Origin: Magnolia sinica
Taxonomy: Eukaryota > Streptophyta > Magnoliopsida > Magnoliales > Magnoliaceae
DNA: 64,000 nt
Reading direction: 5' to 3'
Assembly (NCBI RefSeq): GCF_029962835.1
Contig: NC_080587.1
Span: 55,519,528-55,583,527, forward strand
Shown: positions 8,406 to 64,000 of the stretch, one piece after another
Layout: every line of letters begins with the position of its first letter
Position numbering within the stretch: position 1 is the first letter of the stretch
Notes under the pieces: generated by a model
The model's database searches: none
Told to the model about the DNA's origin: nothing
The model's input: the letters and a program-made list of their open reading frames with translations, nothing else
Translations under genes and position numbers: made by a program

Positions 8406-8461
8406 CTTTTTGTGAGTACTCCTAGTTTGTTTGCCAATTTGACATTCACCACATATTTTGT

Positions 8462-16129: not shown

Positions 16130-19100
16130 TTAATTTAAAATACACATACCCATATCATGTTTTAATTTAGAGAACCTATTCATGTCAAGCGATTTCATAA
16201 AAATGTCAGCAAGTTGATTTTTGGTCTGTATGTATTCCAAAGAGATGTACTTATCTTCAACCAATTCTCGAATATAATGGTAACGAATGTCTATGTGCTT
16301 CATACGAGAATGTTGAATGGGATTTTTATAAATATTAATTACACTAGAGTTATCGCAATACGAGATCATTGTATCCTGCGTAATTCCATAATTGGTTAGC
16401 ATTCTCTTCATTCAAACCAGCTGAGTACATGCATTACCTGCTGCAATGTATTCAGCTTTAGCTGTGGATAAGATACCGAACTTTGTTTCTTACTGTACTA
16501 GGAAAACAGATAGTTTCCAACGTAAAAACATCGACCATTAGTAGATTTTCTATCATCGATGTTCCCAGCCTAGTCAACATCTGTATATCTGGCTAATTGA
16601 ACATTTGTATCATAGGGATACCAAAGACTGTAATTAGCAGTACTTGCGATATATCTAATTATTTGCTTAACAGCAATAAGATATGATTCTTTTAGATCAG
16701 ATTAATATGTTATACAGATTCCAACACTAAAGAAAATATCAGGTCTACTAGCAGTTAAGTATAATAGACTACCAATCATGTTACGATATAAGCAAGAGTC
16801 TATACTCTTACCTGTTTCATCCTTTGAGAGTTTAAGAGTCATAATCATATGAGTATCGAATTTCTTACTATTCTCGAATCCGAATTTCTTAACCAAATTT
16901 AAGGCGTATTTGGTTTGAGAAATGAAGATACTCTCTTCTTGCCGTTTGACCTGTAAGCCTAGAAAGTAATTCAGTTCTCCAACCATACTCATTTCCAATT
17001 TGGATTTCATCAATTCTGCAAACTCAACAGACAGGTTAGTACATGTAGAACCATATATGATAACATCAACATATATCTGTACAAGCAGTATGTGTTCATT
17101 GAATTTTTTAATGAATAAGGTTTTATTAACACTTCCTATGATAAAACTTTGACTGAGTAAGAACTTAGTCAACTTTTCATACCATACCTTGGGAGTTTGT
17201 TTTAAATCGTAAAGTGCCTTTTTAAGGCGATATACATGATTTGAGTGTTGGGGGTCCTCAAAACCCTTAGGTTGTTCAACATACACCTCTTCATGTAAAT
17301 CCCCATTTAAGAAAGTACTTTTGACATCCATTTGATGTACTTTGAATTTTTTAAAGCAAGCAATGGATATAAACAATATGATAGATTCAAGATGAGCTAT
17401 TGGTGCAAAGGTTTCATCACAATCTTTTCCTTCTATTTGAGTGTACCCTTGTACAACCAGTCTAACCTTATTTCTAATTATATTGCCAATTCATCAGATT
17501 TATTTTTGAAAATCCATTTGGTTCCAATTATATACTTATCAGTTGGTCTTGGAACCAAATACCAGACATTATTTCTTACAAATTGATTCAATTCTTCTTC
17601 CATGGCAACAATCCAATTCTCATCAGTAAGTGCATCTTTTACGTTTGTTGGTTCAACTTGAGAAGTAAAACAAATATAATTGTAAATATTTTCTAGTTTT
17701 TTTCTTGTTCACATTCCAGTGAGAAGATTCCCTAAGATTTGATTAGTAGGATGATCCTTGACTAATCTTAGTTTAGTATTAACTGGACTAGATGAAGAGT
17801 CAAGTTTTTCAATTAAATTAACTTCTTCATCTTCTCAACTAGGTGTGGGTGTGATCAGGTGATCATTGATTACGACATTAATGGATTCCTGAATCACTCC
17901 TGTTCTTTTATTCAGAACACGATACGCTCAACTATTACAGCATATCCCAAGAAAATCCCTTCATTACTCTTTGCTTCAAACTTTCATAAGTTTTCATGGT
18001 CACATAAAATAAAACACTTACTTCCAAAAATTGGAAAGTACTTAACCATTGGTTTCTTATTGAACCATAATTCATAAGCTATTTTATCTTTACATTTTCT
18101 TAAATACACACGATTTATAATATAGCATGTAGTATTTATAGCTTCAGCCCACAAATTTTTAGGTAGATTCATGTTGTTCAGCATAACATTAGCCATCTCT
18201 TGTAACACTCTATTTTTCCATTTAACAACCCTGTTTTGTTGAGGCATCTTAAGAGCAGAAAACTCATGCAATATGCCATGATCAATATAGTATTTCTCAA
18301 AATTGCTATTCTCAAATTCGGTACCATGATCACTTCTGGTCTTGATAACATTCATTTCTTTTTTGGTCTGAATTCGTTTTGATATCTTTTTAACTTCATT
18401 GAGAGTTTCAAATTTTTCTCTCATGAAAGCTACCTAAATAAATCTGGTAAAGTCATCGATGATAACTAAAAAAGTACTTTTTACCACCTCGACTCTCCGT
18501 TCTTGTAGGTCCAACTAGGTTCATATGGAGAAGTTCAAGTAGTTTGGTTATGGTTAAGGAGTTCATCTGCTTGTGACTACTCTTAGATTGCTTGCCAATT
18601 TGGCATGCACCACATACTCTATCAACCATTTTCAAATTGGGTAGACCTTAAATAAGATCAACTTTGCGTACTATATAAAGGTTTCAATAGTTAACATGTC
18701 CAAGGCATTTGTGCCATAATTCAGTTTCATCAGTTTGGACCATGTAACATGAGAAAATAGATGAGCAAGTTTCATTAATGATATAGCAATTCTCAGATGT
18801 TCTATGACCACTTAATATCACACAACCTTTCTCATTTGAAATCTCGCATCCTTGATTAGTAAATTTAACACTATGTTTGTTATCAAAAATTTGAGATATA
18901 CTTAGAAGATTATGCTTAAAACCTTTAACATAGAAAACATTTTCAAAAGCAGGAAGGTTAGAAAGTTGTACAGTACCTTGAACTATAATCTTGCAGTTGC
19001 TTCCATCGCCAAAAGTAATTGAACCATTGTTCATTTATTTGTAGTTGGTGAATATCTCCTTGTCACCTGTCATATGTCTTGAACATCCACTGTCCAAGTA

Positions 19101-26816: not shown

Positions 26817-27881
26817 ATGGCCCCTAAGAAAAAGACCACTCGAGCAAACTCCGTACCTCCAAAACGTGCAACTGAGAACTACGCCTCTCGGGAAATGCCT
26901 ATAAGAGAGTCTACATCATCTCCATCGGCAACCGACCAAGGAGCCACACTCCCAGGACTACCCCAGGACTAGCTCCCCCTGATACACAAGCATGGGCACC
27001 ATTCTTTACCATCTTAAGGTGTATAGAGACTTTCAGGTAGAGGACCCAGCAAACTGTGGAGGACCTACAGCAACAGGTCCACAACACTCTCCCAAGGACT
27101 GCAACACCTCCTGCACCACTTACTCGTGATACATCTCTAGCTCCACCTCGACCTGAATGCCATGATGAGTCATTCATGTTAGAAAAGTTCTTAAAGCTAC
27201 GACCTCCCGAATTCTTAGGCACCCCTAATCCAGTGGCAGTCGAACATTGGTCCAAACAGATTAAGAGAACATTGAAAACTATGGGATGCCCTAAACACCT
27301 TAAGGTTCTCTTAGCCACGTTCAAGTTTGAGGGAGAGGCCATTATTTGGTGGGAAGCAATAGAAAAGACCGTTCCCGAAAACCACACATGGGCCTGGGAG
27401 GAGTTTCAAAAAAAGTTCTTTTGGAAGTACTTCCCAAAATCATATCGGGATGAGAAGATGTCTGAATTTTTAAAGCTTACCCAAGGCGAAATGACCATTG
27501 CACAGTACGAGGCCATGTTCACTCAATTATCATGATATGTGCCAAACTAATTGAAGACGAAGACTTCAAGATCAAGCAATGCAAAGATGTCCTAAGACCT
27601 TCAATCCACTCCAAGATATGCTACTTGGATCTGCCAACCTATGCTGACATAGTAAATAAGGCCACCCGGGCCAAAAATGATGATGATTGAAGGACAAGGG
27701 CCCGACTATAGCACCACGAGATAGGGAAGAGATTCAAGACCAACTTCAACACACTGTTGATACCAGATAAAAATCCCAAGGTCACTCTACAACCGAATGC
27801 TGCTCTAGAACAAAGGAAGTGGGGAGACAATCCCCCAGGCTACAACTATTGCAAAAAAAATGGGCCATGTGGTTAAAAACT
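26817..27881 (+). pseudogene. gag of Gypsy element, interrupted
   Basis: The likely start is ATG at 26817 (MAPKKKTTRANSVPPKRA). After a frameshift the Retrotrans_gag core is open at 27056-27535: FLKLRPPEFLGTPNPVAVEH, IIWWEAIEKTV, WEEFQKKFFWKYFPKSYRDE, MTIAQYEAMF. Further stops follow. Near 27850 a decayed CCHC zinc knuckle is visible (YCKK.MGHVVKN). At 27882 a foreign LTR begins; beyond its far end the next bases restore a TGC codon, the expected last cysteine. Role: nucleocapsid and capsid of a Ty3/Gypsy element. No pol was found in this window. Confidence 0.75.
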
Positions 27882-45289: not shown

Positions 45290-46629
45290 TGGGGAAGTCA
45301 CTAGACTATCCAGTGTTATAAGGGAAACCCCTTTTAGGCATTATAGTGGAGACCCACTCACCAGCCCTGCTTTGCCCAATGTCAATGCATTAACGTATTT
45401 AGTCAGTAAATACATCTTTTAGTTTAAAAGTAGGCAAAGTTTTTTTTTTTTTTTTTATTGCAACGGCTTAAATGTTCATTTATTCAATTCTCATTAACAG
45501 TCATCAGGATATGAATCAATACAAAAAAGAATCATCATAGTATGTTATCAAAGCTATACAATAGGAAATTAATCATCGCTACTATGATAATCGTAACACA
45601 CATATCTCCAATCTTAACCGTACATGTATGACACACGTTGGGATTCACTCACCTATTCGTGGTAAGGTTGAATCCATCAAATAGTCAAATGCATAAGTAT
45701 TAATGCTCTGAAGTCCTATTAATATTATTTAACATAATACAAATTAAATTAAACTATATCATTATGTGGGGTCCACCTTTTTTCAAACTAAGATGGTCCA
45801 CAATTAATCCTTATAGCCTTAGTCAATAACTATTTCAGTTATAAGCCGAAGTAGGGAACTGTCGGTCGATGTCGTCGATCGATCGAGCCAACTCGAGAGC
45901 CCTTCAATCAATCCACCATGGATCAATGATATTCTAATTTAGCTTGTAATTAATTCTTTGGACACTTTTGGTCATTCTTGATCGATCAAACTTGGTTGGA
46001 TTAAATCAATTTGCTCACTGGATAAAAATAGTAAACTTCGATCGATCAAGATGGCGTGAGGTTCTCCTCGATTGATTGAACCTCAATGTAGATTAATCGA
46101 AATGAATCTCAAATTATGGTTTTTGGTCTCAGGACATAAATTGACTTCATTGATCGATCGAATTCGGACAAGTTCAATCTATTACACGATCTAATTTTTT
46201 GAAAGTTTTAAGGTTCTCCCATTTTTCCTTATTTTCTTGATTGTAATTGCTTTTAGGGTTTGGGTTCAACACATCCAGTGATTTTTCTTATTGTCATATT
46301 TAAGATTACCAAAGGATCATTTGAATCTTAAACACCAAAAATTCATAACTAGAAGTTGAAAAATGTTTTTTGATATAAAGTATTGTTATATAGACAATTT
46401 ACAATTCATTGTGGGAAATCCTTTAGTCAGATCACTCTAGAATTCGAGGTCCTGACATGATGAGGCTTTAGGATCCTCTGATTTGAATTTTCTTAGACTA
46501 ATTCAGCTGGTTTTTTCCTATAGTGGATCACCCAACATACAAAATTTATGCAAAAATTGTTATTTTTAAAAACTTCTACATGGATTGAAACGATGGGCAT
46601 ATGGTTAATCCATTACACCCATGGGTTAG
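44947..46629. other. Gene-free stretch with microsatellites
   Basis: (GAT)n at about 45120-45150, (GT)n at about 45243-45283 and a poly(T) run near 45440-45458. Between 45865 and 46175 there are several CGATCGATC-type words (TCGATCGATCGAG, GATCGATCAA), reminiscent of the palindrome arrays of the Copia LTRs and possibly an old LTR fragment. No protein-coding signal. Confidence 0.45.
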
Positions 46630-46712
46630 ATCCAGGGTTTTAGAATAGGACTATGAAAAACTAAAAGGATAAATCTAAAAAACCTACCGACGAAGGCTCT
46701 TCTTTCCTAAGG

Positions 46713-46759
<47 letters not shown>

Positions 46760-47695
46760 CTCGTAGGTTTAGGGTTTTCTAAATTTCCTATAGCTCTTCC
46801 CTTATAATAGATAGATCCTCCATTATATAAGATTTTACCGGATTTTTTTTTTTTTTTTTTGTGGGTTTTGACAAAACAAAATTCCTATAACGTTGGGAGT
46901 TAATCTCCTGACTTATCCCTCTACCGAGAGTGCTTCAACTGACTAGCTTTTTTTTTTGGTTCTACTAACTAGCTAAGTGCTTGGTTTTGTTAATAAAAAA
47001 CAAATCAAATTATTATTTTGTTTAATCAGGGTCATTATAATAGAAATGTCAATTCTTCAATTTATATTTCAACGAAAACCCTGAGAGAAATTAGAGAAGG
47101 AAAAATTGAAAGTCAGGAGTGATGGGGGTTAGGGTTCTTTGTCCCCCCATTTAAAGTTGGATTTAATTGTTGGTGGACTAAGATCATCAAAGTGTAAATG
47201 AAGTGGCAAATAGAGAACCATAAACATTACCAAACTCCACACTTGAACATATTGGGTAAGGGTGGAGGGACACTCACAACTCACACTATAAACACCTCGA
47301 TGAGAGAATATATTAGGGAGAAAATATATTACTGCTCCCGATATTCGAACACATGACCTTCCACTCTGATACCATGTCAAACAAACACTTTCTCTAAAAG
47401 ATCGAGCTGTTAAGGATGGTGTATCAATATATGAATTTAACAATAAATGCTTTATATTATTCTCCTTTTTACCTTGTTTCAAGGCTAATGCATTCGTTTT
47501 TCAAAGATCAGATGGATAGACCTAGAAATTAAAGGTTGGGTCCACAATGTGGATGGTCTAGATCCATGACCACATTTCTATTTCTTAAAATCTCCCATAA
47601 TAAGATCAAATTGACTATATAGCAGCATGGGGAGTTGATGGTGGGTCCACTTGATGGGTGATCCACATCCATGTTCGGACCTCTTAGCCATAAAT
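46630..47695. repeat. Tandem duplication, copy 1 left part
   Basis: 46670-47050 and 47575-47695 match 55727-56116 and 56117-56230 (shared: GAAGGCTCTTCTTTCC, TTTGACAAAACAAAATTCCTAT, AAGATCAAATTGACTAT, TTAGCCATAAAT). A piece at about 47051-47574 is absent from copy 2 and contains a minus-strand TGGTATCAGAG (47364-47374) like a primer site of a small LTR element. Copy 1 is broken at 47695 by the CACTA transposon and resumes at 55140. Confidence 0.7.
47364..47374 (-). promoter_or_regulatory. Primer-site-like word in a small insertion
   Basis: Minus strand TGGTATCAGAG preceded by GTGTTTGTTTGACA, inside a ~525-bp piece present in only one copy of the tandem duplication. It may be a TRIM-type or other short LTR element. 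Termini not resolved. Confidence 0.3.
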
Positions 47696-48000
47696 CACTA
47701 CAAGAATTGGGACCTTTAGAGGTGCTTGAAAGCGCCACTAAAAGACCCTAAAGGCGCCGGTGAATGCTTTAGCGGCGCTAGTCAAGCGCCGTTAAATGGG
47801 TATGTCAGTAAAAGTAGTGGTGGCGCTAGGTGACTTTTACCGGCACTTGTATGAGCGCCACTAATTATAGTTTTTCTGACGCGAATAAGCACCTGTAAAA
47901 GTCACTCCGAGCGCCAGTAAAAGTGATTTTTGGACACTTTTTCTCATGAAAAAGCGCTGTAAGATTTCTACACAAGCGCCGGTAAAAGCATTTGTATGGA
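47696..48000. repeat. CACTA left terminal and subterminal repeats
   Basis: Terminal CACTACAAGAA followed by about ten copies of GCGCC/GGCGC words, several as GCGCC.GTAAAAG or CTTTTACCGGC. In CACTA elements such subterminal motifs are bound by the element-encoded DNA-binding protein. Confidence 0.75.
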
Positions 48001-48202
48001 TTTGAGAGGCCTTAGCATGCTAGTAATTTTTATATAATTCAAATGAAACTATATTTTTAAAATATTTAAAACATAAAATGATGCAATATAAAATAAAACT
48101 GAATATTAAAAAAAATTTATATTACTAGACAATAAAAAAAATATAATATTTATTACAATAAATTGAAAATGGTCTTCAATATAAATAAATAAAAACAAAT
48201 CC

Positions 48203-48660
48203 ATCTATCAAAAAAGTTCTTGCCCTCTCCTGGACTTTCAAGCTCCTGTTGCCAAGGAGATGTTTGACAGTTTCCACAATTCCTCAAGCAGTTAAGTTCT
48301 CATCTAGAGGCAGCTTCTCAAGTGCTCCTAGCGCTGCACTGATTGATTCTTCCACAGAACTATCACTTGTGCCACCACTGCACTTGGAGCCATTGGTTGA
48401 GAAACCTATGCCCGTCTAACTGAAGAAAATGATTAAGGCAACCATTCTTCTCTGTTGTTGATAAGGTACTTGCTACAATTGACCATTGTCTGGATGCATT
48501 ACCTACATTCTTCGTAATATTTTCTCTCTGCCTCTACATAACAGCAACCAGCTCTTTGACTCTAGCAAGGTTTGTGAGGCCATCTTTCATCTCAATTGGG
48601 GTGAGGAAATCTTCTAACGTCATATTGCCTTCATGCACCTGCTAGGTACTTCAAACACGC
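48203..48660 (-). pseudogene. Captured TFIIS N-terminal-domain gene fragment
   Basis: The minus strand reads MTLEDFLTPIEMKDGLTN (ATG at 48623), then ARVKELVAVM, stop, NVGNASRQWSIVAST and KNGCLNHFLQLDG. After a frameshift it continues SVEESISAALGALEKLPL, DENL, stop, GIVETVKHLLGNRSLKVQER and ARTFLIDGF. The latter half has the pattern of the TFIIS N-terminal (LW) helical bundle of plant transcription-elongation-related proteins. Two stops and one frameshift make it a pseudogene. It lies last in the minus-strand order of captured fragments. Assignment is from pattern memory; it could be another member of the same fold. Confidence 0.6.
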
Positions 48661-48873
48661 TAATACTCTCATCATCTGCTATTTCTGCAATACACATCTT
48701 AAATTTGATGAGTTGGCTAAAAAATATTAATGTTAATTGATAAGTAATACCAAATAATCCTGAAAGTAAGGGATAAGGTGAGGTGAGTCACAAGTTTAGT
48801 GAACAACAAGATATGTCACATTCTAGGATGAAAAACCAAGCACCGATTATTTTAGAATTCATGTAGTGATTAC

Positions 48874-49159
48874 CTGCTTTGGTTGGCCATTTCTACCCCC
48901 AATAGTTGTCACGATTATATGACCCATCTCTGTGCCATTTCCATTGACCATAGCAGTTTCCATTTCCTAGAATAAAAATTCACATTTCATAGAGAAGGCT
49001 AATATGCTATCAATAAAGCAGAGATAAGATTATATTAAAACCTACCTTGTCATCCCTGATCTTCATATCATTCATTTCTTCAAGCAACCTATCCATGCTG
49101 ATAGCATTTCCACTTGTGTTTCTCAATCCAGTCGCAGGCACCACACTAGCCGATGCCAT
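48874..49159 (-). pseudogene. Captured SHAGGY/GSK3 kinase, first two coding exons
   Basis: Exon 1 (49159-49046, 38 codons) starts ATG and encodes MASASVVPATGLRN...EEMNDMKIRDDK. It is followed by a GT donor; the intron ends in TAG at 48967. Exon 2 (48966-48874, 31 codons) encodes [16 protein letters not shown] then [15 protein letters not shown] and ends at a GT donor. This is the N-terminal extension of plant SHAGGY-related (GSK3) protein kinases, just before the ATP-binding domain. Frame, start and splice sites are all intact, but no kinase-domain exon follows; the next sequence to the left is the TFIIS-like fragment. Truncated by capture. Confidence 0.85.
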
Positions 49160-49179
49160 TTGCTGCAAATTGGGAACCA

Positions 49180-49762
49180 AATAAATCTAGTTCCAGTACA
49201 TTGCAGAATCACCTTTTTTTTTTTCTCAATAACACCCAATCCTTCACCTGCTGTAAAAAATGTAGAGGATCATTTCAGTAAACTAAACAAGCCGAAAAAA
49301 GAAAATAGTGGATTCTCCAGGCTAATCCCTCCCTAAGATTTAAAATATATATACAAGGAAAGAATCTGAGTCTTGCAACAGAAGTCCAATGCATGGACCA
49401 CTGCAAACTGGTCAATGACCATAACTCTGCCAGCCAACGCAATGTAGTGCTTTGAGGAACCCTGACCAACATTTTGTATGGCTCATTAGACTAATGAATT
49501 GTAGTTTCCTTGTTTGCTAACTATCATCCAACCCACCAACGAAGAAATTCGGGCCCACTAATGTTACTTTGCAAATAAAAAATAAAAAATCAAGATGGAT
49601 CTGTGGCAGTAGAGATTGTTTGCAGTTTCTACTCATATAGGAAATGGCATTTATCAAACAAAGTGTTGAAGGGATCGACCTCTTAACTGATTGTTCTTCA
49701 AGAAAATGGACTCTCTTTTTTTTTTGTGGGGGGGGGGGGGGGGGGATTATATAAATATATAT

Positions 49763-49796
<34 letters not shown>

Positions 49797-50540
49797 CAGT
49801 TAGATTTGAACTACAATTGAGGTACAAACATCACCTGCCATTCCAATCTAGTTGGATGATAAAGTAAAAAAAGAAAAAGAAAGGGTAGGGAGGGTGGTCT
49901 AACCAGCACATAAGTTCCAGCAAAGAGAATGCCAGCTACACCAGTAGTGACACGTGTAACTGAAAGTGTAGAGGACCTTGTTCACATGCATTTCTATATC
50001 AAGGAAATACCAAGATTACTGTCAACTTGTGTTAAACAATCAGCTAAAAGAACCAAAACAATAGAAGATGTCTTATCTTACCGCAAAAATTCAAGGAAAA
50101 GCCAAGGATAACAAGACAAAGTTGAGAATCTATTAGCATCTACAAAACTCTTAATTTAATTACACTCTAATATTAAAAAAAGAAAAAATCAAAGAAAACC
50201 ATTCCAAAAGATGGAAGCATTACATCATCCAAATGATCCCTTGCAAACAGACACAATCAACAGAACAAAGATGACCCATTTCTTGCAAACTCCGTATCTT
50301 TACAATCAAAGAGACAATAGGATGGCAGGCACAGTAGACACGTTGGCATGCATGATCAGTACAACTGGTCACAGATGACTGTTTCCCTTCTCCCAAAATA
50401 TCCATATCAAATTTCTAGAGTTTAAAAAGGTATACAGAAAATGAACTCAATTTCACATCCCCTGAAAAATATTTCTTTAAAAATAGATAATTTCAAGCAT
50501 ATCAAGATAATTTCCAAAAAGCAGACACCACATCACAAAA
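49180..50540. other. Pack-CACTA interior with unassigned coding-like patches
   Basis: Two minus-strand patches look exonic but are unidentified: about 49480-49360 (SSKHYIALAGRVMVIDQFAV) and about 49990-49898 (SSTLSVTRVTTGVAGILFAG, then TYVLV, with an AG before and GT after). A G(16) run and (AT)n lie at 49728-49797. The rest may be introns or UTR of the captured genes. Confidence 0.4.
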
Positions 50541-50547
50541 GCCATAC

Positions 50548-50846
50548 CTGGTCTGCCATTGCATATAAAATTGCAATGATGCTTGGAAGACAGCAGCAAA
50601 CAGCAATACCAATGACAGACGCCAGAGGAACACAAAAAACAACAAAGAACATGTGTAAAGTTAATAAGTATCAAGTGTGAGCATGTGCTTCAAGCCCAAA
50701 CCACAACAAGAGTAAGTTGCATATACCAGTAAAGTTGAGGTGCATCACGGGTCAAAGTTTGGCCACTAGGAGATGCCCAATAGAATCCAATGATCCACCA
50801 TATGAATGAAAACATTGTATTTGCAGACTCCAAATGCTTTGCAACA
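50548..50846 (-). pseudogene. Captured membrane RING E3 ligase exons
   Basis: Exon 50846-50727 encodes VAKHLESANTMFSFIWWIIG then FYWASPSGQTLTRDAPQLYW, flanked by AG and GT sites. A second exon, about 50656-50548, encodes [20 protein letters not shown] then [14 protein letters not shown] with a GT donor. Both match the transmembrane part of plant RING-type E3 ubiquitin ligases of the At1g12760/At1g63170 type. The RING finger itself is not included. No stop is visible within either exon. Two hydrophobic segments would be membrane-spanning. Confidence 0.75.
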
Positions 50847-51258
50847 CTGGCACAAGAATGATGGTGAGCAGATACAGTAAGTTAGGAAAGTATTATAAAT
50901 AGGGTTGGTATCTCCCACTTAAACAAGGTATTCAAAAATGGTTACATAATGTCTGTTACGTAACAGTAACAGTGGGAACCATTAGGCATTATGGGGCTTT
51001 AACAGCAGTTAAGGAAAAGATGACCCGTAGTGCCCTTATGGGCCAATACAATTTATTCATTTATTTTTAAAAAGGCAGTAATGGCCATTACGGCTGTATC
51101 TTAATCATTATTGAATGCCATGCACTTGACATCAAGTTAAGCAGATCAAAATGCATTGCCAAAATAGCACAAGCCACAATCGTTGCCAAAGTAATATTGA
51201 AAATAAGGTGCAAATAAAATTGAAACATAATGCATCAGAACTTCAAAACATGTCTCAC

Positions 51259-52060
51259 TTTTGGAGAAGAGAATGTAAATGTTACGCACTACAGTCTTGA
51301 CATCGAACCGTTCGAAATCTGCTTCAGCTCTTCCAGGCTCCTGTAAAAATAAGCGTATCAGCAATATTGACATGAGTGGATGGATTTTTGAAGGTTGAAA
51401 ATGAAGTAAGATCTTAAATAGTACATATTCCTTCTCTAGCTGAATTACCAAAGTGCCCATGGAGCATGGAGAGTCACAATCCTTGCTAATTGTTCATGAA
51501 AGGTTGCCATTTTATTTGACTGTAGAAAGGGTACTTTGAAAGATTACAACCCTCAATTTTAAGGTGTAAAAAGTTGAAACCCATGGAATTTCTAACAGCT
51601 ACATTACAAAGAAATTCCGATTTGCTTCTGTTGGAAGCAATCAATGCGTTAAAGGTGACAAGCATCATTTGCCTTAGTTTGGTGAAATCTGCACAAGTGC
51701 TGACACTTTTTTTTTTCTTTTCTTTTCTTTTTTTTTTTCAAATTCAATTTCAGTATGGCTGATGTTGTGTGCAGCTTTAATGTTCTCTAGCAGATTTCAG
51801 ATCCAACAATTAGCATAACATATTTCATTCAGTACCAATTCCTCCTAAGACGACACAAAAAAAGGGAAACTACATTACCTACCACCTCGATACGTAGAAG
51901 CCTTTGGGGAGATCTTTGCTGATGGTTTTGGAACCAGGAAGGATAAATGGCACACCTAATGTTATGAATCCCAGCAACCTCTCTGGATGAAGGATAGCGA
52001 ATAGCGAAGAGGTAAAGACTCCAAAATCCTTCAAGACAAGGAAAGTCTTCCACATCATCA
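51259..52060 (-). pseudogene. Captured soluble epoxide hydrolase exons
   Basis: The first exon (about 52060-51879) encodes FLVLKDFGVFTSSLFAILHP then ERLLGFITLGVPFILPGSK and LPKGFYVSRW. Its last codon is TAG where the family has glutamine (CAG), then GTAATG. The second exon (51340-51259), after a CAG acceptor, encodes EPGRAEADFERFDVKTVVRN then IYILFSK, followed by GTGAGA. These are adjacent exons of a plant alpha/beta-hydrolase epoxide hydrolase: the nucleophile-elbow region with KDFG, and the cap region. Catalytic acid and histidine are not captured. The C-to-T stop is consistent with methylation-driven decay. Confidence 0.75.
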
Positions 52061-54036
52061 TCACCAAGAAATTAGCATGTTAATGATTCTTGAGTAAGAA
52101 AAGAAAGAAAGTAAACAATTATAGCATAAGCAATTAACTTTGGAGTTGAGTAGCATAGTTTAAAATTCAAAACTCATATCGAATGTATTTTTCTTTCTAG
52201 ATTCTTCATTTCTTTTGACATGTACTGATCTTTCTTTGATTTCCATATTGAAAGAACATAAAAGAGGTGGAAGAAGAAGAAGAAAAGTCATAATCATCAT
52301 CGTCATCTTAGCCTTTTCTCCTAGCGATTTCAGGTTGCCTTTTAAGTGGTAGATTGGCAAGAGTTCTAAAAACGTCCCTGCCCACCAGACATTACCTTCC
52401 ATCACTAATTGATTCATGTCTGTCACTAATTTGAAAACAGGGCATTTAAGTACCTTATGAGAGTCTGTCATTGTTAATTCAACAGTTCAACTCCTGAGCT
52501 GACTAATTACATTGGTACAAGTAAAACTTAAAATTAATACTGAAAGAAGTATTTTATTTATTTATTTTTTTCTATTTTCTTCCCTAATTCCTCTGATTTA
52601 TATATGCTCTATCTTTCTACATGTTTTGTGTTATTTTAAAAGGAAATACAAAAGCAGGAAGGAGACTGAAGTGCCATATGCAGAAGGACGGAGAAGTTTA
52701 CAATTTCTATAGTCATCTTTTCATTTCTCTAATATTCCATTATATTAAAGATGTTCTGTATTAAGATTTGATTCAAAACTCAGAAAATCAAAAAGCAACC
52801 ATATTTTTCTGAATTAAAATTCCTCATGTTTGAAGTAAACTTGGATTCGAGCCTGTCTTTTTAATGAAATTCATTCAATGCATTAAAAACAAAACAAAAA
52901 AAAAAGAAAAAAAGAAAGAAAGAAAGAAAGAAAGAAACGTAATTTCTGTAGCTATCAGGCACCTTTTGGATGCCAAAGGAATGAGAATGAATGTAAGTAT
53001 CCTTGCTAACAAAGGAATAAGAATGCCCATTCCACCATGCATTCATATGATATCTTTCTTGTGTGTGTGTGTATGTATCAAAATGAAAAGGTGCCAGAAA
53101 TCTCATCATTCTGCTTAAATATTTGAGAAACAGGATCTAAGCCTCTAGTTTGTTCTTTAGGGAACAAACTTTGCACCAATCACTAACACAATTGGAGGGC
53201 CGAATATAAAGCCCCTAGCCTCGACTCCTATAAGCATACCAAATTCAATATCAAATCCATTAAATTAAGTGCCTTCTTAGGTATAAGAGCTTTTGTCCAT
53301 CAAACCTTTTGAACAGATCAGATGTTATGCACATATGACACTAGGTAGAAAAGGATTGGCTATATGTAGAAGTTTGTGTACAGTCGCTGCATGAGTAGTG
53401 GATATTTCAAGATTTAAATAACTGTAAGTTCCAGAAAAGGATTGGCTATATGTAGAAGTTTGTGACAACATTCAGGTGTGGTGACCAATGACTCGGTACA
53501 TAAACAGACTTTAATATGCACTTCTAGCCATGGATTTGTGGCCTCTAAAGGAACGGTGAAGATTAAAAGATAGAGATATCATAGAATGCTCAGTCTGAGA
53601 GTTGGCCCACTAAACTCAGTTTTCAATTTGTACTTGGCATTAGTTTGGGTGGTCCATGTACTATGAACGACTCAGATTTGAAGACCTTGTTGTGGTTTAT
53701 TTGTTTGGCCCTGTTGAGTGGTTAAGGATCTTTCCAATAACTGACAACTTCAAAATCTAAAACTGCAGTTCTTTCCATAAAGATTGACACAATTCAACAT
53801 TCTCAAATGAAAAAAAAAAAAAAAAAAAAACAAGAACGGAGAAAAGAGAAACCTCAGAAACTGACTCCCTTCCAGATCACTGCCACCTTCCATGGCAAAA
53901 TCCAAAGCACAAAGTTCATTCCCTTTGGTTCACAAACATCTCCCTCAAAAGATCTAAATGACAAACAGTTACAAATAAGGCTTGACAATTGACAGCCAGA
54001 TTCGTTTGTGATGCGAAGGCAGATAAAACTCACCAA
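52061..54036. other. Pack-CACTA interior, no assignable gene
   Basis: A minus-strand open block at 52471-52160 begins MTDSHKVLKCPVFKLVTDMN but no family was recognised. Elsewhere low-complexity tracts (GAAA at 52900-52935, GT at 53060-53074, poly(A) at 53808-53831) and AT-rich intron-like sequence. A ~20-bp phrase, AAAAGGATTGGCTATATGTA, occurs at 53350 and 53436. Confidence 0.4.
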
Positions 54037-54123
54037 AGCCTCTCTTCCTTTCGATGCTCCAGATCTGGAAGATTTCTTCCCAAACAGAGCCATCTTGATC
54101 CATTTTCCTGGAGATTTCCCCAT
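54037..54123 (-). pseudogene. Captured IQD (IQ-domain) gene, first coding exon
   Basis: ATG at 54123 starts MGKSPGKWIKMALFGKKSSR then SGASKGREAL, ended by GTGAGT. This is the highly conserved N-terminus of plant IQD calmodulin-binding proteins. The upstream sequence to about 54660 is GA-rich and contains AACCCTAA words, consistent with captured 5' UTR or promoter. The calmodulin-binding IQ motifs are not present. As the fragment furthest 5' on the minus strand, with start codon and donor intact, it could act as first exon of a chimeric transcript. Confidence 0.75.
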
Positions 54124-54556
54124 ACTGCAACTGCTAAAGCATATACCCTAAAACCTCTAAAACCCAGAATTCAAGCCTTGCACAAGATCCAGACACCAGA
54201 AACAGCTCAAACTCCATTTGAATACAAGCACAAATGCCACCAGACCATTCCAACACTATTTACCACTTTACCGCAGCATGAGAATAAAATCAGAGGATCT
54301 AAAACCCTATCTAGAAAAGAAAAACCCTAACCTTATAATGATTCAGTGGAATTTTGTTTATTTCGATCCACCAGATCTCGCTAAAATCCCCATAATCAGA
54401 GAGAAAAAAAAAAAAACCCACCAAAATTCACCTCTCCAATGCAGTATCAGAGAATCAAGGAAGAGAGAGAGAGAGAGTGGTGAATGTCGTAATCAAACCA
54501 TAAACACTGGAAAGGAAGCCAGCAAACAAAACTGAAAACCTTGCCACGATCTTCTG

Positions 54557-54561
<5 letters not shown>

Positions 54562-54612
<51 letters not shown>

Positions 54613-54877
54613 TCGGAGATCTGAAGCTTACCATAGGAATGTAGCTCTTTGAAACCCTAATTCAACCATTCCTCAACTCCAAAAACCAGAAAAATACCTA
54701 ATTAGGATTTCAACATTGAATTAGGGTTTCAACATAGTAAATCCCTAATTAGGGTTTCAACATTGTAAATCCCTAATTAGGAAATCACCAAGGTTGAAAT
54801 TGATGAAATCTAGACTCTTGCCTGTTTCAGATCTTCATCTAAGCCCTGAAATTAATGGCAGCTCGTGCGCACGCGTG

Positions 54878-54921
<44 letters not shown>

Positions 54922-54984
54922 GGGTAGGAAGAAGCTGAGAGTCACGCGAGAGAGAGAGTCGGGGGTAGGAAGAAGGTGAGAGTC

Positions 54985-55015
<31 letters not shown>
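54562..55015. repeat. (GA)n microsatellites and short tandem repeats
   Basis: (GA)n at 54562-54609, 54881-54917 and 54987-55015. A ~34-bp repeat with ATTAGGGTTTCAACAT at 54700-54780, and a ~43-bp repeat with GTCGGGGGTAGGAAGAAG at about 54917 and 54958. Confidence 0.85.
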
Positions 55016-55017
<2 letters not shown>

Positions 55018-55139
55018 GAGAGCGAAATGGAAATCGTGGTTTGTCTTTATTTTTAAGAGACATCCGTGGGCCCACTTTTAAATAGCGCCGGTGCATGTTG
55101 CACCCAAAGTGCCGGTTTTACCCATTTTTGTTGGTGGTG

Positions 55140-55715
55140 AATGATCGAACGGGCTAGATCATAATTAGCTTTAATTACAAATACTTTGGCCCATCCATTG
55201 TGTTGACCATTGATAAAATGCAAGGATAATTAGAACAGAACTCTAGATATGGGGAGCTATGGGTAGAGCTTCATGATGGATGGTCGTCATATACATGATT
55301 GGATCTTTTTGGCGTATATAATTTGAACGTCCATTTTCTTTGCAAAAAGACAGCTGGCAAGGGTTATCATATAAATGTAGTTAATGAGATCTATGGTCTT
55401 TCTTTGATTTGATGCGCCTGAATTGGTTGGAACTGGTGTAGGATTTCTTCTTGCCTCTTGGGTTTTTTTTTTTTCCATAGTTTGTCCCAACTGAAGTGTG
55501 AAATGGCCCCTTTTTTAGGCCTCCTAAATAGTGTAGCCCACGTGATTGAAAAATCTGATCATGCAAATACGGACACATGTGAGAACACATGACTTTAGCC
55601 AATTTTTTGCCAAGTATTTAACCTAACATTAAGATCAAAATTACCTTAGAAGAACATAATTGTAAATATCTTCACACATGCGAAGATAACAATGTACAAT
55701 ATGAAGGAGAAATCT
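55140..55715. repeat. Tandem duplication, copy 1 right part
   Basis: Continues copy 1 after the CACTA element. It matches 56231-56780 (shared: CCATTGATAAAATG, ATGATTGGATC, AACCTAACATTAAGAT, CACACATGCGAAGATA). Its end runs directly into copy 2. Confidence 0.75.
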
Positions 55716-55851
55716 GAAGAATTTACTGGTGAAGGCTCTTCTTTCCCGGGCTATACTCTCTCTCTGTTGCTCTTAGGTTTAGGGTTTTCTGAATATCTTG
55801 CAGCTCTCTCCTTTAAATAGAGAGAGCCCTAATTTTAGAAGATTCCACTAC

Positions 55852-55918
<67 letters not shown>

Positions 55919-56790
55919 CGTAGGTTTTGACAAAACAAAATTCCTATAGTATTGAGAGTCAATCCCTTAACCTATCCCTCTACCAAAAATGTTTTTACTA
56001 ACTAGCTAGGTGCTTGTTTCTGTTAACAAAGAAGAAATCAAATTATTAATTTTTTTTTATCATGTTCTCGCATGAGTCACAAAAATCAGGGTCATTACAA
56101 TAGAAAATGCCATTTCTTTAAATTTTCTCATAATAAGATCAAATTGACTATGAAGCAGCTTGGGGAGTTGATGGTGGGGCCACCTAATGGGTGATGCACA
56201 TTCATGCTCAGACCACTTAGCCATAAATAATCTAACGTGTTAGATTATACTTAGTTTTAAATGCAAATATTTTTGCCCATCCATTTTGTTGACCATTGAT
56301 AAAATGGCAAGGATAATTAGATCAGAACTATATGGGGAGCTAGGGGTAGTGCCTCATGATGGATGGTCCTCACATAAATGATTGGATCCTTTTGGCGTAC
56401 ATAATTTGGATGTCCATTTTTGGCGTACATAATTTGGTTTTCGTATAAATGTGATTAATGAGATCTATGGCCTTTCTTTGATGCTCCTGAATTGGTTCGA
56501 ATTGATGTACGATTTCTTCTTGCCACTTTCCTTTTTTTCTTCATATCGTGGCCCAACTGAAGTTTTAAATGGCGTGATTTTTAGGCCTTCTAAATAGTGT
56601 AGCCCTCGTATTTGAAAAATCTGATCATCCAAGCATTGGCACATGTGATAAAATGTGAATTTAACCTTCTTCTTTTTTTCTTTGCCAAGTATTCAACCTA
56701 ACATTAAGATGAAAATTACCATAGAAGAACAAAATTGTAAATAAATTCACACATGCGAAGATAGCAATGTACGATGTGAAGGACAACTAT
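55716..56790. repeat. Tandem duplication, copy 2
   Basis: Uninterrupted copy carrying the empty CACTA target site at about 56219-56231. Contains an (AT)n run at 55854-55916 where copy 1 has poly(T). No coding signal. The strong similarity to copy 1 in order and orientation defines a direct duplication of about 1 kb. Confidence 0.72.
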
Positions 56791-58329
56791 GAGAAGGTAA
56801 CTCATCCCCTTTCACGAAGAGCATAGCATGTATGAAAGAGTAGGTCTAGCATGAGAGAAAAGAGCCATTTGGGCTAGCCAAGGAGACTGCCTATAGGACC
56901 ATGTATACATTTCAATTGAATGGCTCATGTATGCACATGAGCGTATTGAAATGCATGTGAACGTATGCATAGGCAAGTCATTCTTGGCTACCTAAGAAGG
57001 CTCTTTACCTTCATGTAAGATCTCTCTTCCTCTGCTCATTCCTTTGTGTACTGGAATTCCGTTCCTTGGCTTACAAACTTCACTATTTATAGGCAGGTGA
57101 ACGAAAGAACGGATTCGTTTGCACACTTCATTATTTCATTTTTCTCTATTCTTCTAGAGGCCTCATCACCCACTTTCAATCCTATTGTGCCCATGTGGAA
57201 TATATTCTCATGATATACATGCACTGTTTCATGAAAGAGGAATGCTGTTATGATGTTTTTTGCTTCAGGAAGTTACATGAAGTGTTGGCCAACACAGCTA
57301 AACCACACATGTGGTTCATGTGAGTGGCAATCAGAACCGTCAATTAGTTTGGATGTCATATATATGAATTGGCCAGAAGCAAAAAAACTGAGGTGATGAC
57401 TCGATTGATGGCATGGGATCATTTGTGAGGAAATGGAGGGTTAGCACAAAGTTGATAAGAAATGGAAAAGCTTAAAGTTAGTATAAGATTAGAATAATAT
57501 AATCACTACCATTTTTGAGGTATTTCTCATCTACGTGGTGCTCCACTGTATTAACAATAGATTTTCAGCTTCATGGAACTTCCTATAGAGCTTGCATTAT
57601 AGTTTAGCTTTTTTTCTTGTTTGTTGTTGTGTTAATATTTGCTTATGAAGCAGCGGTCCAACAGGGGTTTTTTTTTTTTTTTTTTTTAGTAAATAAAAAA
57701 TAAAAAATAAAAAATAAAAAATAAAAAAAGAAGAATGGGAAGAAGTAGACAAGAAACCGAAGGTTGGAAGCCTTCCATTGCGTTACTGGTTCACCTTTGA
57801 TATCTTCCAACGGGTTTGTCCTGACTCTCCACTAATGTAGGCCAAGTGGCTTTGACCACACTTTAAAGCGAACGGTTCTCAAAATCTCAACAGAAAGCCT
57901 TATCTCCAAGGCCAATAGTAAACTTTAGTGACAACGCCCTGATGAGAGGATTACATCTGGTTGCTTTAACTTCACTTTAAGGACTCATTTTTAATTCTAA
58001 CAACAGTATTTCACCTATTTCATAAGTTATGCCATTCCAAACAACTTTACGCTCAGCCGCCTAAACGCGTCCATATGCACAATATGACACACGTGTGGAC
58101 ATCAGAGCCATCCATCGGGTTTTCCCACACCATGTCAATGCTATTCACACAAAATCCAAGCGGGTCCAATCCAATGAACGAATAAAAACTTGCTTTTATC
58201 TTTTCCCTTGGGAGCAATGTTGGTTTAACGTCCACATTGTAAGTGTAGTGTGGTTAAATGTCCGCATTATGACTTTCCCTTGGGCCCACTGTTAGGCCCA
58301 TATGTGTAGCTGTCTAGGCCCATCTTCAT
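56791..58329. other. Gene-free stretch
   Basis: No conserved ORF. Poly(T) at about 57667-57688 followed by (AAAAAT)n at 57692-57727. The word ATGTATG/GCATGT recurs around 56880-56970. Nothing else recognised. Confidence 0.5.
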
Positions 58330-59480
58330 TATGAACATCATCCACCCCATATAACATATTTAATTCCATGATTCATGATCATATGCATCATACGTATGCT
58401 TGATATGAGAAATGGTTGATCATAGCATAGCCTTCGGGCGATTGTTTAAGGGGCTCCGTGAGTGTTGCCCTACATGAAGCAGAACGCGAGATTTTGCATG
58501 AATAGTGTGATTCATGCATCCGCATTGTGTGGTATGGTTCTACGTCCTGCGACATCGGGAGTAACCTCTGGACGTATCGTGGTTGGCGGGATTGGATACC
58601 GAAAATCATTTGTTCTACATGGGGTGCGATAGATATCCAGTGAAAGTCCCTAAACCCTTATGGTACCAGGAGGTTGCTCCAACGCTAGCCAAGTGGGTGC
58701 ATGGCGTGAGTCCGATACGACGGTTGCGCTTTCCACGTGTCGTGGTCGGTTGGAAGGGGGTGCGGCCTTACCGCCCAAGAGGAGGTAGACTGAGTTCGAC
58801 CGGCTCGAGGAATGGGTCCGCTATTGACAGCCGAGCCCGATATTGGCGGCGGATAGTGAGGTCTTTTCCACTCACCTTATTGCGCGCGATGGGGCGGCAA
58901 TCGGCTTGGAGTGTACTAGACCCGGTGATATTCCAAATTTGAGCCGTATTGACATGTGGACTTAGATGAGGATTTGTATGCTTGACTTGCATTTCGCATT
59001 GCATGGCCTTGGAATGGCCGACATCATTCTTTGCACCGCATGGCCTTGGTACGGCTAATGAGATTCTTAGCATTCATCAGCATGTTCCGCATTACTCTGA
59101 TACTGCATGACTACATTATCACCTTGAGCATACACTTTCACCACCCTCTAAGCTTTCTATAAGCTTATGCACGACCGTTGCGTGCAGGTGACGTTGGATC
59201 GCAGCAGCGCTGAGCTTGGACGCGTGGCTGATCTTTAGGAGCTCTTTTGGTCTATCTTCATTGTATTTCCCTTATGCTCATTGTACTTGTAAAGTTTTTG
59301 ATTATAGTGAAAATGTGATGGAGTTTTTGGTTGTTGTTTGTGGGTTATGCCTTTGGATATGCTTATTACGAATCAAACTGATGTTGAAAATCCTCCTTGT
59401 AGCATCTCAGGATCGGAACCTGGCGAATGGGCGCTGTGATGATTGGAAGGGAAATCAACTATCTACTATACCCAGGAGAC
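58330..59480 (+). repeat. Degenerate Gypsy-like LTR, plus orientation
   Basis: Related to the reverse complement of 62714-64000. Shared phrases include GTGCAGGTG.CGTT followed by GCAGCAGCG, ACCCTCTAAGCTTTC, and GAATGGGCGCTG (versus TTATGGGCGCTG). Two copies of GCATGGCCTTGG lie at about 59002 and 59039. The expected 3' terminus (GGGGCATGACA) is missing, so it is truncated near 59480. Left limit uncertain. Confidence 0.55.
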
Positions 59481-60984
59481 GATGGTGAATCACGAATTTT
59501 ACCAATCTTAACAATATCAGAACATATAAAAAGATATTCAAAGCTTCCACAGCATCTACTGTAATTGGAGTCACAATAAACTATAGAAAACTAAAAATAT
59601 CTCTTAATTCAAACCATAAATCAATAGAAGTTCAATATAAATGTGAATCAAAGTAAGATACTTATCTAAACAAACTACAAGATTCGCCTCTTAGCTCTAG
59701 CTAAGAGGTTTAGCCAACCAAAAACATGATTAAAACCAAAACTCTTAAAGAAAACATAAAAACTAACTAAAAGAAGAAGATTGAGGAATAAGGAAGAATT
59801 CCTTGAAGTTCTCCAATACCTTGTTCCACTCTTCCAACCCTAATTCGTGCTTGGAAATAATTAAGAGACACGTATTTATAGTATTTGCTTGGACCAACTT
59901 TGAAACCGCCTCAAATTTATGCAAAAAGTTACTCTTCAGTTGGATTGAAGTTGGGTTCGGTCGAACCGAATTAAAGCTGAAAATCGCACTTTCTCAATGG
60001 ACAATTCTGCGTGATTTTAGTCAAACCAAATTAAGGCTGAAAATCCTGCTTCTTGCTGGACTGTTTTGCCCGATTTCAGTCGGACCGAAATTAAATTTCG
60101 GTTGAACCAAACTTTGTTTCAAGACTTTTTCTGTTTTAGACTCATAATTCCAGAATATGTTTTTTCAAGCCAATTTTCACGATTCCTTTTTCTTTACTTT
60201 AGATATTCAATTCTCTTCATTCCTGACCTGGTTTCTTAGATCTTTGGCATGTAAATTCTTCATTAATGACTTCCAAATCTCTGAATCTTCATTTAGTAAC
60301 CTTTTGAGCATAAATTTTCCTTTTGGCATTAATTTCACCTTAAGCTCTCGAAACCACATTGCACATGAAAACATGTATAATTAGATCCATTAAGTATTAT
60401 CATGTTTTTAAAACCAAGGTATAAATAGAAAAAAATATGCAATATTTCACACTCAACACTTATCCTATTTACACTCATATATATAACCTTGGAAAGAATT
60501 CTAAACGAAATCGGAAACAAATCCCGCAAATTGCACAGAATCTGCCAATGCCATCAAACACTTATAGATAGCATCGAAACTAATCCTTCGATAGCATCGA
60601 AACTAATCCTTCGATAGCATCGAATACTTATCAATGGCATTGAACTAACACCTCAACACTCCAGAGACAAAACATGATTTTCCAAAAATTCTTGATAGCA
60701 TTGAACACTCATCGATGACATCGAAAAGGTGCCCAATTAGTCCAGCGACCAACTGAAGAAAATTCAGAAACATCGATAGGATCGAGAACTGTTCGATGTC
60801 ATTGAAGGTGACATGAAATAGGCTATTGATGGCATTAAAAAACCATATATTTGATTCAGTTTAAGATACCAAATACAACAATCTTCACCATGTCTTTAAC
60901 CATCAAACGTGTCTTCTCTTATATCTGTCATGCATCATAGCTCCATCAATGCTTCTCGTGCACATTTCGTCCTCCTTTTTATGC
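59481..60984 (-). other. Possible 3' UTR/LTR of the Tork-like element
   Basis: Minus-strand TATA-like CTATAAATAC near 59870 and a TGTTGAGTGTGAAATA start-like phrase at about 60463 suggest LTR sequence downstream of the Copia pol. A 23-bp unit (GATAGCATCGAAACTAATCC + TTC) is tandemly repeated at about 60573-60618, with further ATCGAT/CATCGAA words to 60830. No ORF. Boundaries not resolved. Confidence 0.35.
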
Positions 60985-62713
60985 TATCGTCAAGCACAGA
61001 GAAGTCTCACAGAACTTGAACTTCTCTACAAAAACCATCTTGGTTAGCATATTTGCCAGATTCACGCTCGTTTGAATCATCTCTAAAGTCACGCCTCCTT
61101 CTTTAAAACCTATCAGATAAAGTGATGATGAACATCAATGTGTTTAGTACGATAATGATAAACAAAATTTTTACCCAAATTGATAGTGCTCTCGCTATCC
61201 CATTTCACCACTATGGCCTCCTGATGAAGCCCTAATAGATTTATCATGCTTCTTAACCAAACACATTCCTTAAACACTTTTGTCATTACCATATACCTAG
61301 TTTCTGTTGTAGAAAGAGCCGCCTAGATTCAAGCTTCAACATCAAACTAATTGCTCCATCCTCTAGCATAATTGAGTAACTTGAAGTCGAATTTCTATAA
61401 TCCACACTGCCTGCGTAGTCTAAATCTACATACCCAACCAACTTTGTTCCTGTCTTCTCAAAAGTTAAGACGTAGTCCTTTGTACATCAAATATATTGAA
61501 GTAGCCATTTCATCGCTTCCCAATATTGCTTGTCGAGGTTTGTCATGTATCTTTTCACAACATCGACTACCAGTGAAATATCTGGTCTCATACAGACCAT
61601 GACATACATTAAACTGCCAACTACATTTGAATAAGGCACATGAGACATATCCTGCTTTCCTCAATTATGTTGGGACATTATTTTGAGGAAAGCTTGAAGT
61701 GAGTCGCATGGGGAATACTCACCGGCTTTGCCTGGTCCATACAATACTTGATCAACACCTTTTCAAGGTATTCTTCCTTTGATAACCAAAGCCTGCTCCT
61801 CTTCCTGTCTCTATGAATATTTATGCCAAGAACCCTCTTTACAGCCCCCAGATCTTTCATCTCGAATGTCCGTGATAATTGAGTCTTTAGTGCATCGATT
61901 TTAGACATGTCATAACTGGCAATTAACATATCATCAATATACAGTACGAGGATGATGAAATTGCGATCACTCAGTGTCATGTAATAGACATAGTGATCGT
62001 ATCCACCTTGAGTAAAATTTTGACTTAACATAAAAGAATTAAATTTTTTTACCACTGCCTAGGCGACTGTTTCAGGCTGTACAATAACCTTCGTAACCTA
62101 CAAACTTTATTCTTTGCCCCTTTAACTTTGTAGTCTTCTGGTTGATTTATGTAGATATACTCTTCCAACTCCCGGTGCAGGAATGTAGTCTTGACATCTA
62201 TCTATTACATCTTGAGATCGTATTAGGCAACTAGTGCCAACACGAATCTGATAGATATTTACTTTACAATTGGCATGAATATCTCTATGAAGTCAATGCC
62301 TTCTCTTTGTGCACAACCCTTCACTACTAACCACTCTTTATATCTATTATGTTTCCTTTTGAACAACCACTTACATCCGATCACTTTTTGGCCCACTGGA
62401 AGCTCTACTAGCTCCCATATGTTATTTTTGTGCAATGAATTCATCTCACTGTCCATACCTACCTTCCACTTTTCTGCATCAGGCTCATTAAGTGCCTCCT
62501 GAATAGTAGACGGGTCTCCCTCATATATAATGAGGGCATATGGGATATTAAAGTCGTCCATGTATCTTGCCGATAACCTGAGATCACGCGGTGGATTTCT
62601 TCTTACATGTGGCTACTCCACCTACTCCTATATCTCTGTTTGCGCATCTGTCTCTTCCTGAATTTCATCTAAGTCAATTTGGACGTCTATGATCAACATT
62701 TCTAGTTCCTCTT
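60985..62713 (-). pseudogene. Tork-like Copia pol, broken
   Basis: The minus strand reads EALNEPDAEKWKVGMDSEMN and WELVELPVGQKVIGCKWLFK (62561-62259). After a decayed gap comes RT with the catalytic YIDD box (VLYIDDMLIASYD), MKDLGAVKRVLGINIHRD and LWLSKEEYLEKVL (62055-61678), then RNase H with GYVDLDYAGSVDYRNSTS near 61440. These match the Tnt1/Tork type of Copia polyprotein, distinct from A-C. Stops and frameshifts occur throughout. Integrase is missing: the sequence is cut at 62713 by an LTR. Confidence 0.8.
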
Positions 62714-64000
62714 TGTCATGCCCCAAACTTAGAAATTGGGTTAAAAAATTCCTGATTGCCGAATTCGAACCCAGTGCCGACAGCCTCCGTAGTACCCAAT
62801 TCTCAGCTCCCAGCGCCCATAAGTTAGATTCTGATTCTGGGATCCTATAGGAGGATTTTCTAACGTACATTTGTCTCATAAGAAGCATAACCACAAGTTT
62901 ACCCAAATCACAAAAGCAACATCATCATCAAACATTTGAATACAATGCTAAAAGGGAAATACATATATCGAAAATCAAAGCTCTAGAAGATGTTACGTGC
63001 TCCAAGCTCCACGCTGCTGCAACCTAACGCCACCTGCACACATCTATCATGCAGAAGCTAATGGAAAGCTTAGAGGGTGATGCAAGTGTGTGCACAAGGT
63101 AAGTGCCAAGTATACAATATAGGTCCATAAATTATACAATGTTAAAAATACTAGTAAGTCTGTAAATCATACAATATCAGAGTATACAATGCAGATTGAT
63201 TATGCAATGAGGAGACAAGAGGTCAAATATCATATGCCGAAGATGCTGTGCAATATACAATTCCTGATGAGTTCATGAATACCTTCAGACATATCTAGGC
63301 CATACATCAAACCTACGCATATCGCATGATCATGTGGGGATAACTCCGTCTCACAAGGAGTTCCATAAACATATCAGCCCAATGACATCTGCTTTAATCA
63401 ATCATCCATGACAACATGCATGCGAATGATGGAGGTCCACATAAGGATGGCGGATCTAGTCCAAATATCAAGATAAGCTCACTAATTTAAAACGTGTCAC
63501 GATAGTTAAGGAAAGAATCTAACTTATAGCCACCACAACATCGGATGATGCTCCCGATGTGGGATAAAGTTCTGCCTTCACTATGTGCACAGTAGTCTGC
63601 CAGCACAGTAGCTTGCCAATCAGTGTCTGCCCATGTGGAGCCGCTCACATGTGATCACAGTGATAGAGCATGACAATATCCCCCAACGAGGGCAAATCCG
63701 AGTCTAAGTGCAATAAGTGGGCTTCCTTACCCTCTCTATCGCGCAATAAACTAGACTTTCCTATGGGCCCAATATATACACAAGGTGGGCTCCAAGGTGT
63801 AGGTATCATGATGATATGCTGTCACGTGCTCGATAATTGACCTCAATAAATGGCCTCGGCAATTGGCCTCGACAATCGTAATCGACCTCGATAATCAGCC
63901 TCAACAATCGGAATCAGCCTCGACAATCAGAATTGGCCATAACAATAGGAATTAGTCTCAAGAATCGAAATTGGCCTCGACAATAAGAATCGGTAATCGG
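62714..64000 (-). mobile_element. Gypsy-like LTR inserted in Tork pol, runs off window
   Basis: On plus it begins TGTCATGCCCCAAAC, so on minus it ends GGGGCATGACA. The Copia reading frame runs up to 62713 and stops there. No primer site is seen on its 3' side, so it is a 3' or solo LTR. It is related, inverted, to 58330-59480. The 5' part lies outside the window. Confidence 0.65.
63836..64000. repeat. Imperfect minisatellite at right edge
   Basis: Roughly ten units built on GGCCTCGACAATC with GGAATC spacers (about 15-22 bp each), diverged, continuing to the window edge. Inside the LTR that starts at 62714. Confidence 0.7.

Follow-up and report, generated by a model that had tools for sequence, protein, structure and literature searches.

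Pieces of five unrelated host genes in a Magnolia sinica locus that reads as a non-autonomous Pack-CACTA element

Introduction

The capture of pieces of several host genes by CACTA transposons is a kind of event that is already known, and the element described here, which spans positions 47696-55139 (7,444 bp) of a 64-kb stretch of Magnolia sinica DNA (the whole stretch analysed, called the window below), is a new, well-bounded example of it. Among the described relatives, Tgm-Express1 of the soybean wp allele is a 5.7-kb CACTA element containing exons and introns of five unrelated genes, from which chimeric spliced transcripts are made (PMC1947982). Like it, the Magnolia element combines exonic and intronic sequence from five host genes that are unrelated to one another, with canonical splice sites, and in the excerpts available from that paper no transposase is mentioned for Tgm-Express1 (PMC1947982). 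The two differ in that Tgm-Express1 is 5.7 kb long, lies in intron 2 of F3H, carries five other genes and has been proven to undergo chimeric splicing, whereas the Magnolia element is known from sequence alone. An earlier note on this DNA had called five donors in 7.4 kb unusually rich, which does not hold, as Tgm-Express1 has five in 5.7 kb.

The Pack-CACTA elements among the Pack-TYPE transposons of Arabidopsis, rice and maize also consist of gene pieces, in many cases derived from several loci, enclosed by the ends of a non-autonomous CACTA element, and as far as the excerpted text goes, those of maize contained the most distinct loci among the Pack types studied (PMC8903248). These were called as repeated families, by clusters of terminal inverted repeats combined with a search of coding sequences, whereas the Magnolia element is a single copy in the window; the pipeline also used target-site duplications (TSDs) of 5 nt for CACTA, compared with 3 bp in the Magnolia element (PMC8903248). 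The CACTA elements of Chenopodium have captured host gene fragments too, but those described in the available excerpts have one captured gene each, located beside transposase domains; a CACTA transposase of Magnolia ashei is mentioned in the same excerpts, where no captured genes are reported in it (PMC8978399). Among the titles found by searching the literature for the terminus string, one was relevant, a paper on CACTA in radish, and the others were unrelated.

An empty site defines both ends of the element

The features at the two ends of the element and at its insertion site are as follows.

47696-55139, unstranded: whole CACTA-type element with no recognisable transposase (boundaries from the empty site; six-frame Pfam search negative)
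47693-47695, unstranded: TSD AAT, left copy
47696-47708, plus strand: left terminus CACTACAAGAATT, a typical CACTA-type end with AAT directly before it
47731-47980, unstranded: left subterminal region; 7 AGCGCC motifs, spread over both strands
55065-55124, unstranded: right subterminal region, with ACCGGCACTT and GCGCCGGTGxATG in common with the left one
55125-55139, minus strand: right terminus CACCACCAACAAAAA, diverged
55140-55142, unstranded: TSD AAT, right copy
55704-56792, unstranded: copy 2 of the flanking tandem duplication, lacking the insertion, with the AAT of the empty site at 56226-56228; aligned with the joined flanks over 1063 columns at 84% identity

Both flanks of the element come from the same copy of a roughly 1.1-kb tandem duplication, the copies of which are 84% identical. 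Copy 1, made up of 46601-47695 and 55140-55717, holds the element. The boundaries were set by copy 2, in which the paralogous site is empty. The counterpart of the left flank (47580-47695) is 56112-56228, with 87% identity, and that of the right flank (55140-55717) is 56226-56792, with 80%; the only bases common to both intervals are the AAT at 56226-56228. When the flanks were joined with one AAT, 890 of 1063 columns were identical to copy 2 (424/517 on the left and 466/546 on the right), and the junction was free of gaps. This is the pattern of a site that was never filled, not of an excision footprint.

As both flanks meet on a single AAT in copy 2, the ends at 47696 and 55139 are exact to the base, and the AAT on both sides, which the earlier note had already pointed out, is a 3-bp TSD. 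A TSD of 3 bp is also given for CACTA elements in the available text of the Chenopodium study (PMC8978399). The empty site further shows directly that the whole 7.4 kb was inserted as a unit. The insertion is younger than the tandem duplication, whose copies now differ by 16%. No host gene was found at the insertion site. The locus offers a clean example, exact to the base, of a CACTA element in Magnolia that has captured several genes, with the adjoining empty site as an internal control.

The left end reads AAT and then CACTACAAGAATTGGG from 47696, and the next 300 bp or so are dense in GCGCC motifs on both strands. AGCGCC occurs 12 times in the window, 7 of them within 47731-47980 and 1 in the right end, compared with a chance expectation per window of 3.66 on average and 8 at most (100 shuffles). 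The CACTA-type terminus, flanking AATs and subterminal GCGCC repeats of the earlier note were thus all seen again, and the left end is typical. Helitrons and Pack-MULEs are both known as carriers of gene pieces and either could be proposed as the capture vehicle, but Helitrons leave no TSD and MULEs leave one of about 9 bp, and with a CACTA terminus and a 3-bp duplication at this locus, the probability of another vehicle is close to negligible.

From the CACTA terminus, the GCGCC subterminal repeats, the 3-bp AAT duplication, the five intron-bearing gene pieces and the lack of a recognisable transposase, 47696-55139 is almost certainly a non-autonomous Pack-CACTA element. The earlier description of a Pack-CACTA with pieces of five host genes is confirmed by the empty site and by the homology of the pieces. 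For the transposase, of which the earlier note had found no trace either, no Pfam family was found at E<=0.1 in all six frames of the element (stops read as X), a negative that is weak for decayed remnants.

Some observations weigh against this classification. The Pfam search was also blank on the confirmed gene pieces, so that a decayed transposase remnant could escape detection; when Pfam was used for naming the gene pieces, it gave only unrelated families below threshold. Repetition is one defining mark of a transposon family, and no second copy of the element was present within the window when the element with 1 kb of each flank was compared with it. Lastly, the right terminal repeat is no better than chance on its own: over the first 11 bases it is equalled or surpassed by 736 plus-strand sites of the window, 19 of which have AAT next.

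The right end, read on the minus strand from 55139, is CACCACCAACAAAAATGGGTAAAACCGGCACTT, with AAT next on the plus strand, and 4 of its first 11 bases mismatch the left end when the two are taken as inverted repeats. The terminal repeat alone was accordingly rejected as proof of the right end. Local alignments between the right and left subterminal regions rose only modestly above chance, their scores being reached by 7 and 16 of 500 shuffles. Subterminal repeats nevertheless occur at both ends. Among the five GTG|AAT sites in 48200-63990, the preceding 75 bp share 7 GC-rich 8-mers with the left subterminal region at 55139 and none at each of the other four. Per 75-bp window, the right end has 9 common 7-mers (best away from the right end, 8) and 7 common 8-mers (best away from the right end, 4). 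The diverged inverted terminus reported earlier can be kept as far as the boundary at 55139 is concerned, which the empty site and the subterminal k-mers both mark, while the repeat itself does not rise above chance.

The divergence of the right terminus could also be explained by a smaller CACTA element lying beside a separate patch of pseudogenes, with an accidental right boundary. However, the right flank of the empty site begins exactly at 55140, and the subterminal k-mers in 55065-55139 exceed those of every 75-bp window away from the right end, which makes this explanation extremely improbable.

Just inside the right end, 55068-55086 on the minus strand holds TATTTAAA and GTGGGCCCAC, which we take to resemble a TATA box and the plant TCP/site II motif, respectively. 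These might drive transcription into the upstream region of the IQD piece described below.

Pieces of five genes within the element

Between its ends, the Pack-CACTA element carries parts of five plant genes that are unrelated to one another. All of them lie on the minus strand, in the right-to-left order IQD, epoxide hydrolase, RING E3, GSK3 and TFIIS-N.

54034-54123, minus strand: IQD31-like exon 1, with start codon and 30 codons followed by donor GT, (CT)n-rich upstream; 93% to Magnolia sinica IQ-DOMAIN 31-like P0121
51879-52049, minus strand: epoxide hydrolase exon piece a, final codon TAG (Q in homologues), then donor GT; 82% to M. sinica P0007 over 57 columns
51254-51340, minus strand: epoxide hydrolase exon piece b, acceptor AG before; homology stops within the exon at 51254; 97% to P0007 over 30 columns
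50727-50846, minus strand: exon piece a of an At1g12760-like RING E3, from the transmembrane region, with an AG before it and a GT behind it; homologues P0015 and others
50548-50649, minus strand: exon piece b of the RING E3, also from the transmembrane region, with damage at the 5' edge, where AG is lacking, and a donor GT behind it; 78% to M. sinica P0015 over 40 columns
49046-49162, minus strand: SHAGGY/GSK3 kinase, N-terminal exon that includes the start codon, with an AG before it and a GT behind it; PDB 8qcw_A at E=1.2e-9 for both exon pieces together
48874-48966, minus strand: SHAGGY/GSK3 kinase, the exon that follows, likewise with an AG before it and a GT behind it; PDB 8qcw_A and splice context
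48212-48623, minus strand: TFIIS-N-domain gene piece (from the start, MTLEDF..., to ...ERARTF), with two stops and one frameshift, ending within an exon at 48212; identity to Tasmannia P0139 60% in one frame and 64% in another

Fetched homologues of four genes (18 IQD, 21 epoxide hydrolase, 99 RING and 52 TFIIS-N) were used as tblastn queries, and at E<=0.01 all 376 of 376 matches fell inside 47696-55139 on the minus strand, with none elsewhere in the window. The homologues had been gathered with the element's own peptides, and the informative part of this result is the single strand and the lack of matches elsewhere in the window. Searching the PDB with the epoxide hydrolase pieces gave 10 chains at E<=0.001, every one named epoxide hydrolase (best 5.3e-5). 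For the GSK3 exons, 8qcw_A was the sole chain matching at E<=1 and is named serine/threonine protein kinase; the label SHAGGY for a kinase of this type is our assumption. The RING pieces had no match in the PDB. The TFIIS-N piece has 52 homologues at E<=0.01, with a best identity of 60% (Tasmannia) and 57% in M. sinica; its 11 PDB matches (E 0.055 to 0.73) carry the names of unrelated proteins and were rejected. The tblastn homologues and 8qcw_A agree with the five gene identities proposed in the earlier note.

With exon boundaries placed by eye, to within a few bases, donor GT was present at 6/6 expected exon ends and acceptor AG at 4/5 expected starts, and an intron of about 540 bp has been kept between the two epoxide hydrolase pieces. 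The retained introns and canonical splice sites indicate that capture took place at the DNA level.

Between acceptor-like and donor-like sites at 49897-49965 (minus strand) there is also an open stretch with the peptide VTRVTTGVAGILFAGTYVL, possibly the exon of a sixth gene, for which no match was found in the PDB. A perfect 32-bp direct repeat (53347-53378 and 53433-53464, 86 bp apart) is located between the IQD and epoxide hydrolase pieces.

Origin of the gene pieces

The best listed M. sinica homologues are on four different contigs: IQD P0121 on one of 141.9 Mb, epoxide hydrolase P0007 on one of 73.8 Mb, RING P0015 on one of 105.5 Mb and TFIIS-N P0146 on one of 116.1 Mb. These four homologues are therefore not neighbours in M. 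sinica, although the true parents may be other genes than these best listed homologues (identity is only 57% for TFIIS-N) and the parent of the GSK3 piece lies outside this comparison. Whether the parents adjoin was the test proposed in the earlier note, and for four of the five pieces the outcome speaks against a conserved gene cluster.

Uptake of one neighbourhood of genes in a single event, or decay of a gene cluster, would account for the shared orientation of the five pieces, which has a chance of 1 in 16 if they are independent, and the GSK3 and TFIIS-N parents could still adjoin in the source species. On the other hand, besides the four contigs, internal exons of different genes succeed one another in the element without gene ends, and a common neighbourhood is, on balance, very improbable.

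Decay and coding potential

The captured pieces show damage to their reading frames. The TFIIS-N piece has two in-frame stops and one frameshift, and the epoxide hydrolase piece has a TAG at a position where its homologues have Q. Taking as conserved those codons with at least 95% conservation in the homologue set (GSK3, which has no such set, was left out), 13/131 conserved codons were changed in the element: 1/14 in IQD, 1/30 in epoxide hydrolase, 9/55 in RING and 2/32 in TFIIS-N. Four of the 9 RING changes are at the damaged 5' edge of piece b. Dating a stepwise capture by decay was tried and rejected, as no significant age order was seen (TFIIS-N against the rest, p=0.73).

Joining all exons from the IQD start gives 32 readable codons and 15 stops, and the best of 128 exon combinations reaches 164 codons, by way of edges without splice sites. 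Due to these stops and frameshifts, it is unlikely that the pieces form a working fusion gene or encode a functional fusion protein. Transcripts might start in the IQD upstream region and run through the exons, which all have the same sense. Several features would fit an expressed chimeric gene under selection with the IQD upstream region as its promoter: the single sense of all exons, the position of the IQD start codon, with the sequence upstream of it, at the outer edge, the canonical splice sites, and the precedent of the Tgm-Express1 exons, which are reported in the available excerpts to be spliced into transcripts (PMC1947982). However, the 32-codon reading with its 15 stops, the need of the longest combination for edges without splice sites, and the stops in the epoxide hydrolase and TFIIS-N pieces make such a gene very improbable.

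A possible mechanism and a candidate inner terminus

The Pack-CACTA element would have been moved in trans by a CACTA transposase from an autonomous relative, which could recognise both ends with their subterminal repeats and mobilise the stretch as a unit. The gene pieces may have been acquired as genomic DNA with their introns, in one or several events, with either the fusion of nearby insertions or repair synthesis as the route, and would now be decaying as pseudogene pieces.

For the fusion route, one site within the element has to be considered.

48856-48868, minus strand: terminus-like CACTACATGAATT, AAT before it, five bases past the GSK3 exon; 1 mismatch to the left terminus

When both strands of the window were scanned for the 13-base left terminus with no more than one mismatch allowed, CACTACATGAATT was the sole hit besides the terminus itself. 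Sites like it, counted if starting with CA, occurred 0.13 times per window in 60 shuffles, and none was preceded by AAT. The 8-mer GGTGCTTG follows CACTACATGAATT at offset 24, compared with 25 at the left end, which is seen at 0.13% of random positions, the resemblance of both having been noticed post hoc. Against an old terminus at this place, a gapped 40-base comparison ranks the 48868 site only 11th of 1480 CAC starts (the true right end is 192nd), and no subterminal GCGCC repeats lie beside it. Within the element, further inner termini of the right type were represented by poly-C or poly-A look-alikes only, and the common 8-mers are no denser inside it (6.5 per kb) than outside (6.1 per kb).

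It is conceivable, though rather doubtful, that 48868 is a fossil inner CACTA end. A smaller element bearing the TFIIS-N piece (about 47696-48868) could then have been inserted just behind the GSK3 exon, and a later joint move with an insertion nearby would have carried along the GSK3 DNA in between. If real, this terminus would fit the neighbouring-insertion model of Pack-CACTA capture, in which, according to the excerpted text, two nearby insertions move as one and carry the intervening DNA (PMC8903248). How the captures followed one another, and that neighbouring insertions were fused, could in that case be read from one copy, whereas both have so far been argued from element families and Arabidopsis lines.

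Other features of the window

Pieces of other transposons lie elsewhere in the window. Two on the minus strand are of Copia type, one at 7497-8465 with an integrase core and a retroviral SH3-like domain and one at 16705-17490 with an RVT_2 reverse transcriptase, and a Ty3-like Retrotransposon gag protein is present at 27041-27532 on the plus strand. Matches below threshold to Transposase_32, a putative plant transposon protein, were seen at 4685-5182 and 14864-15538, both on the minus strand.

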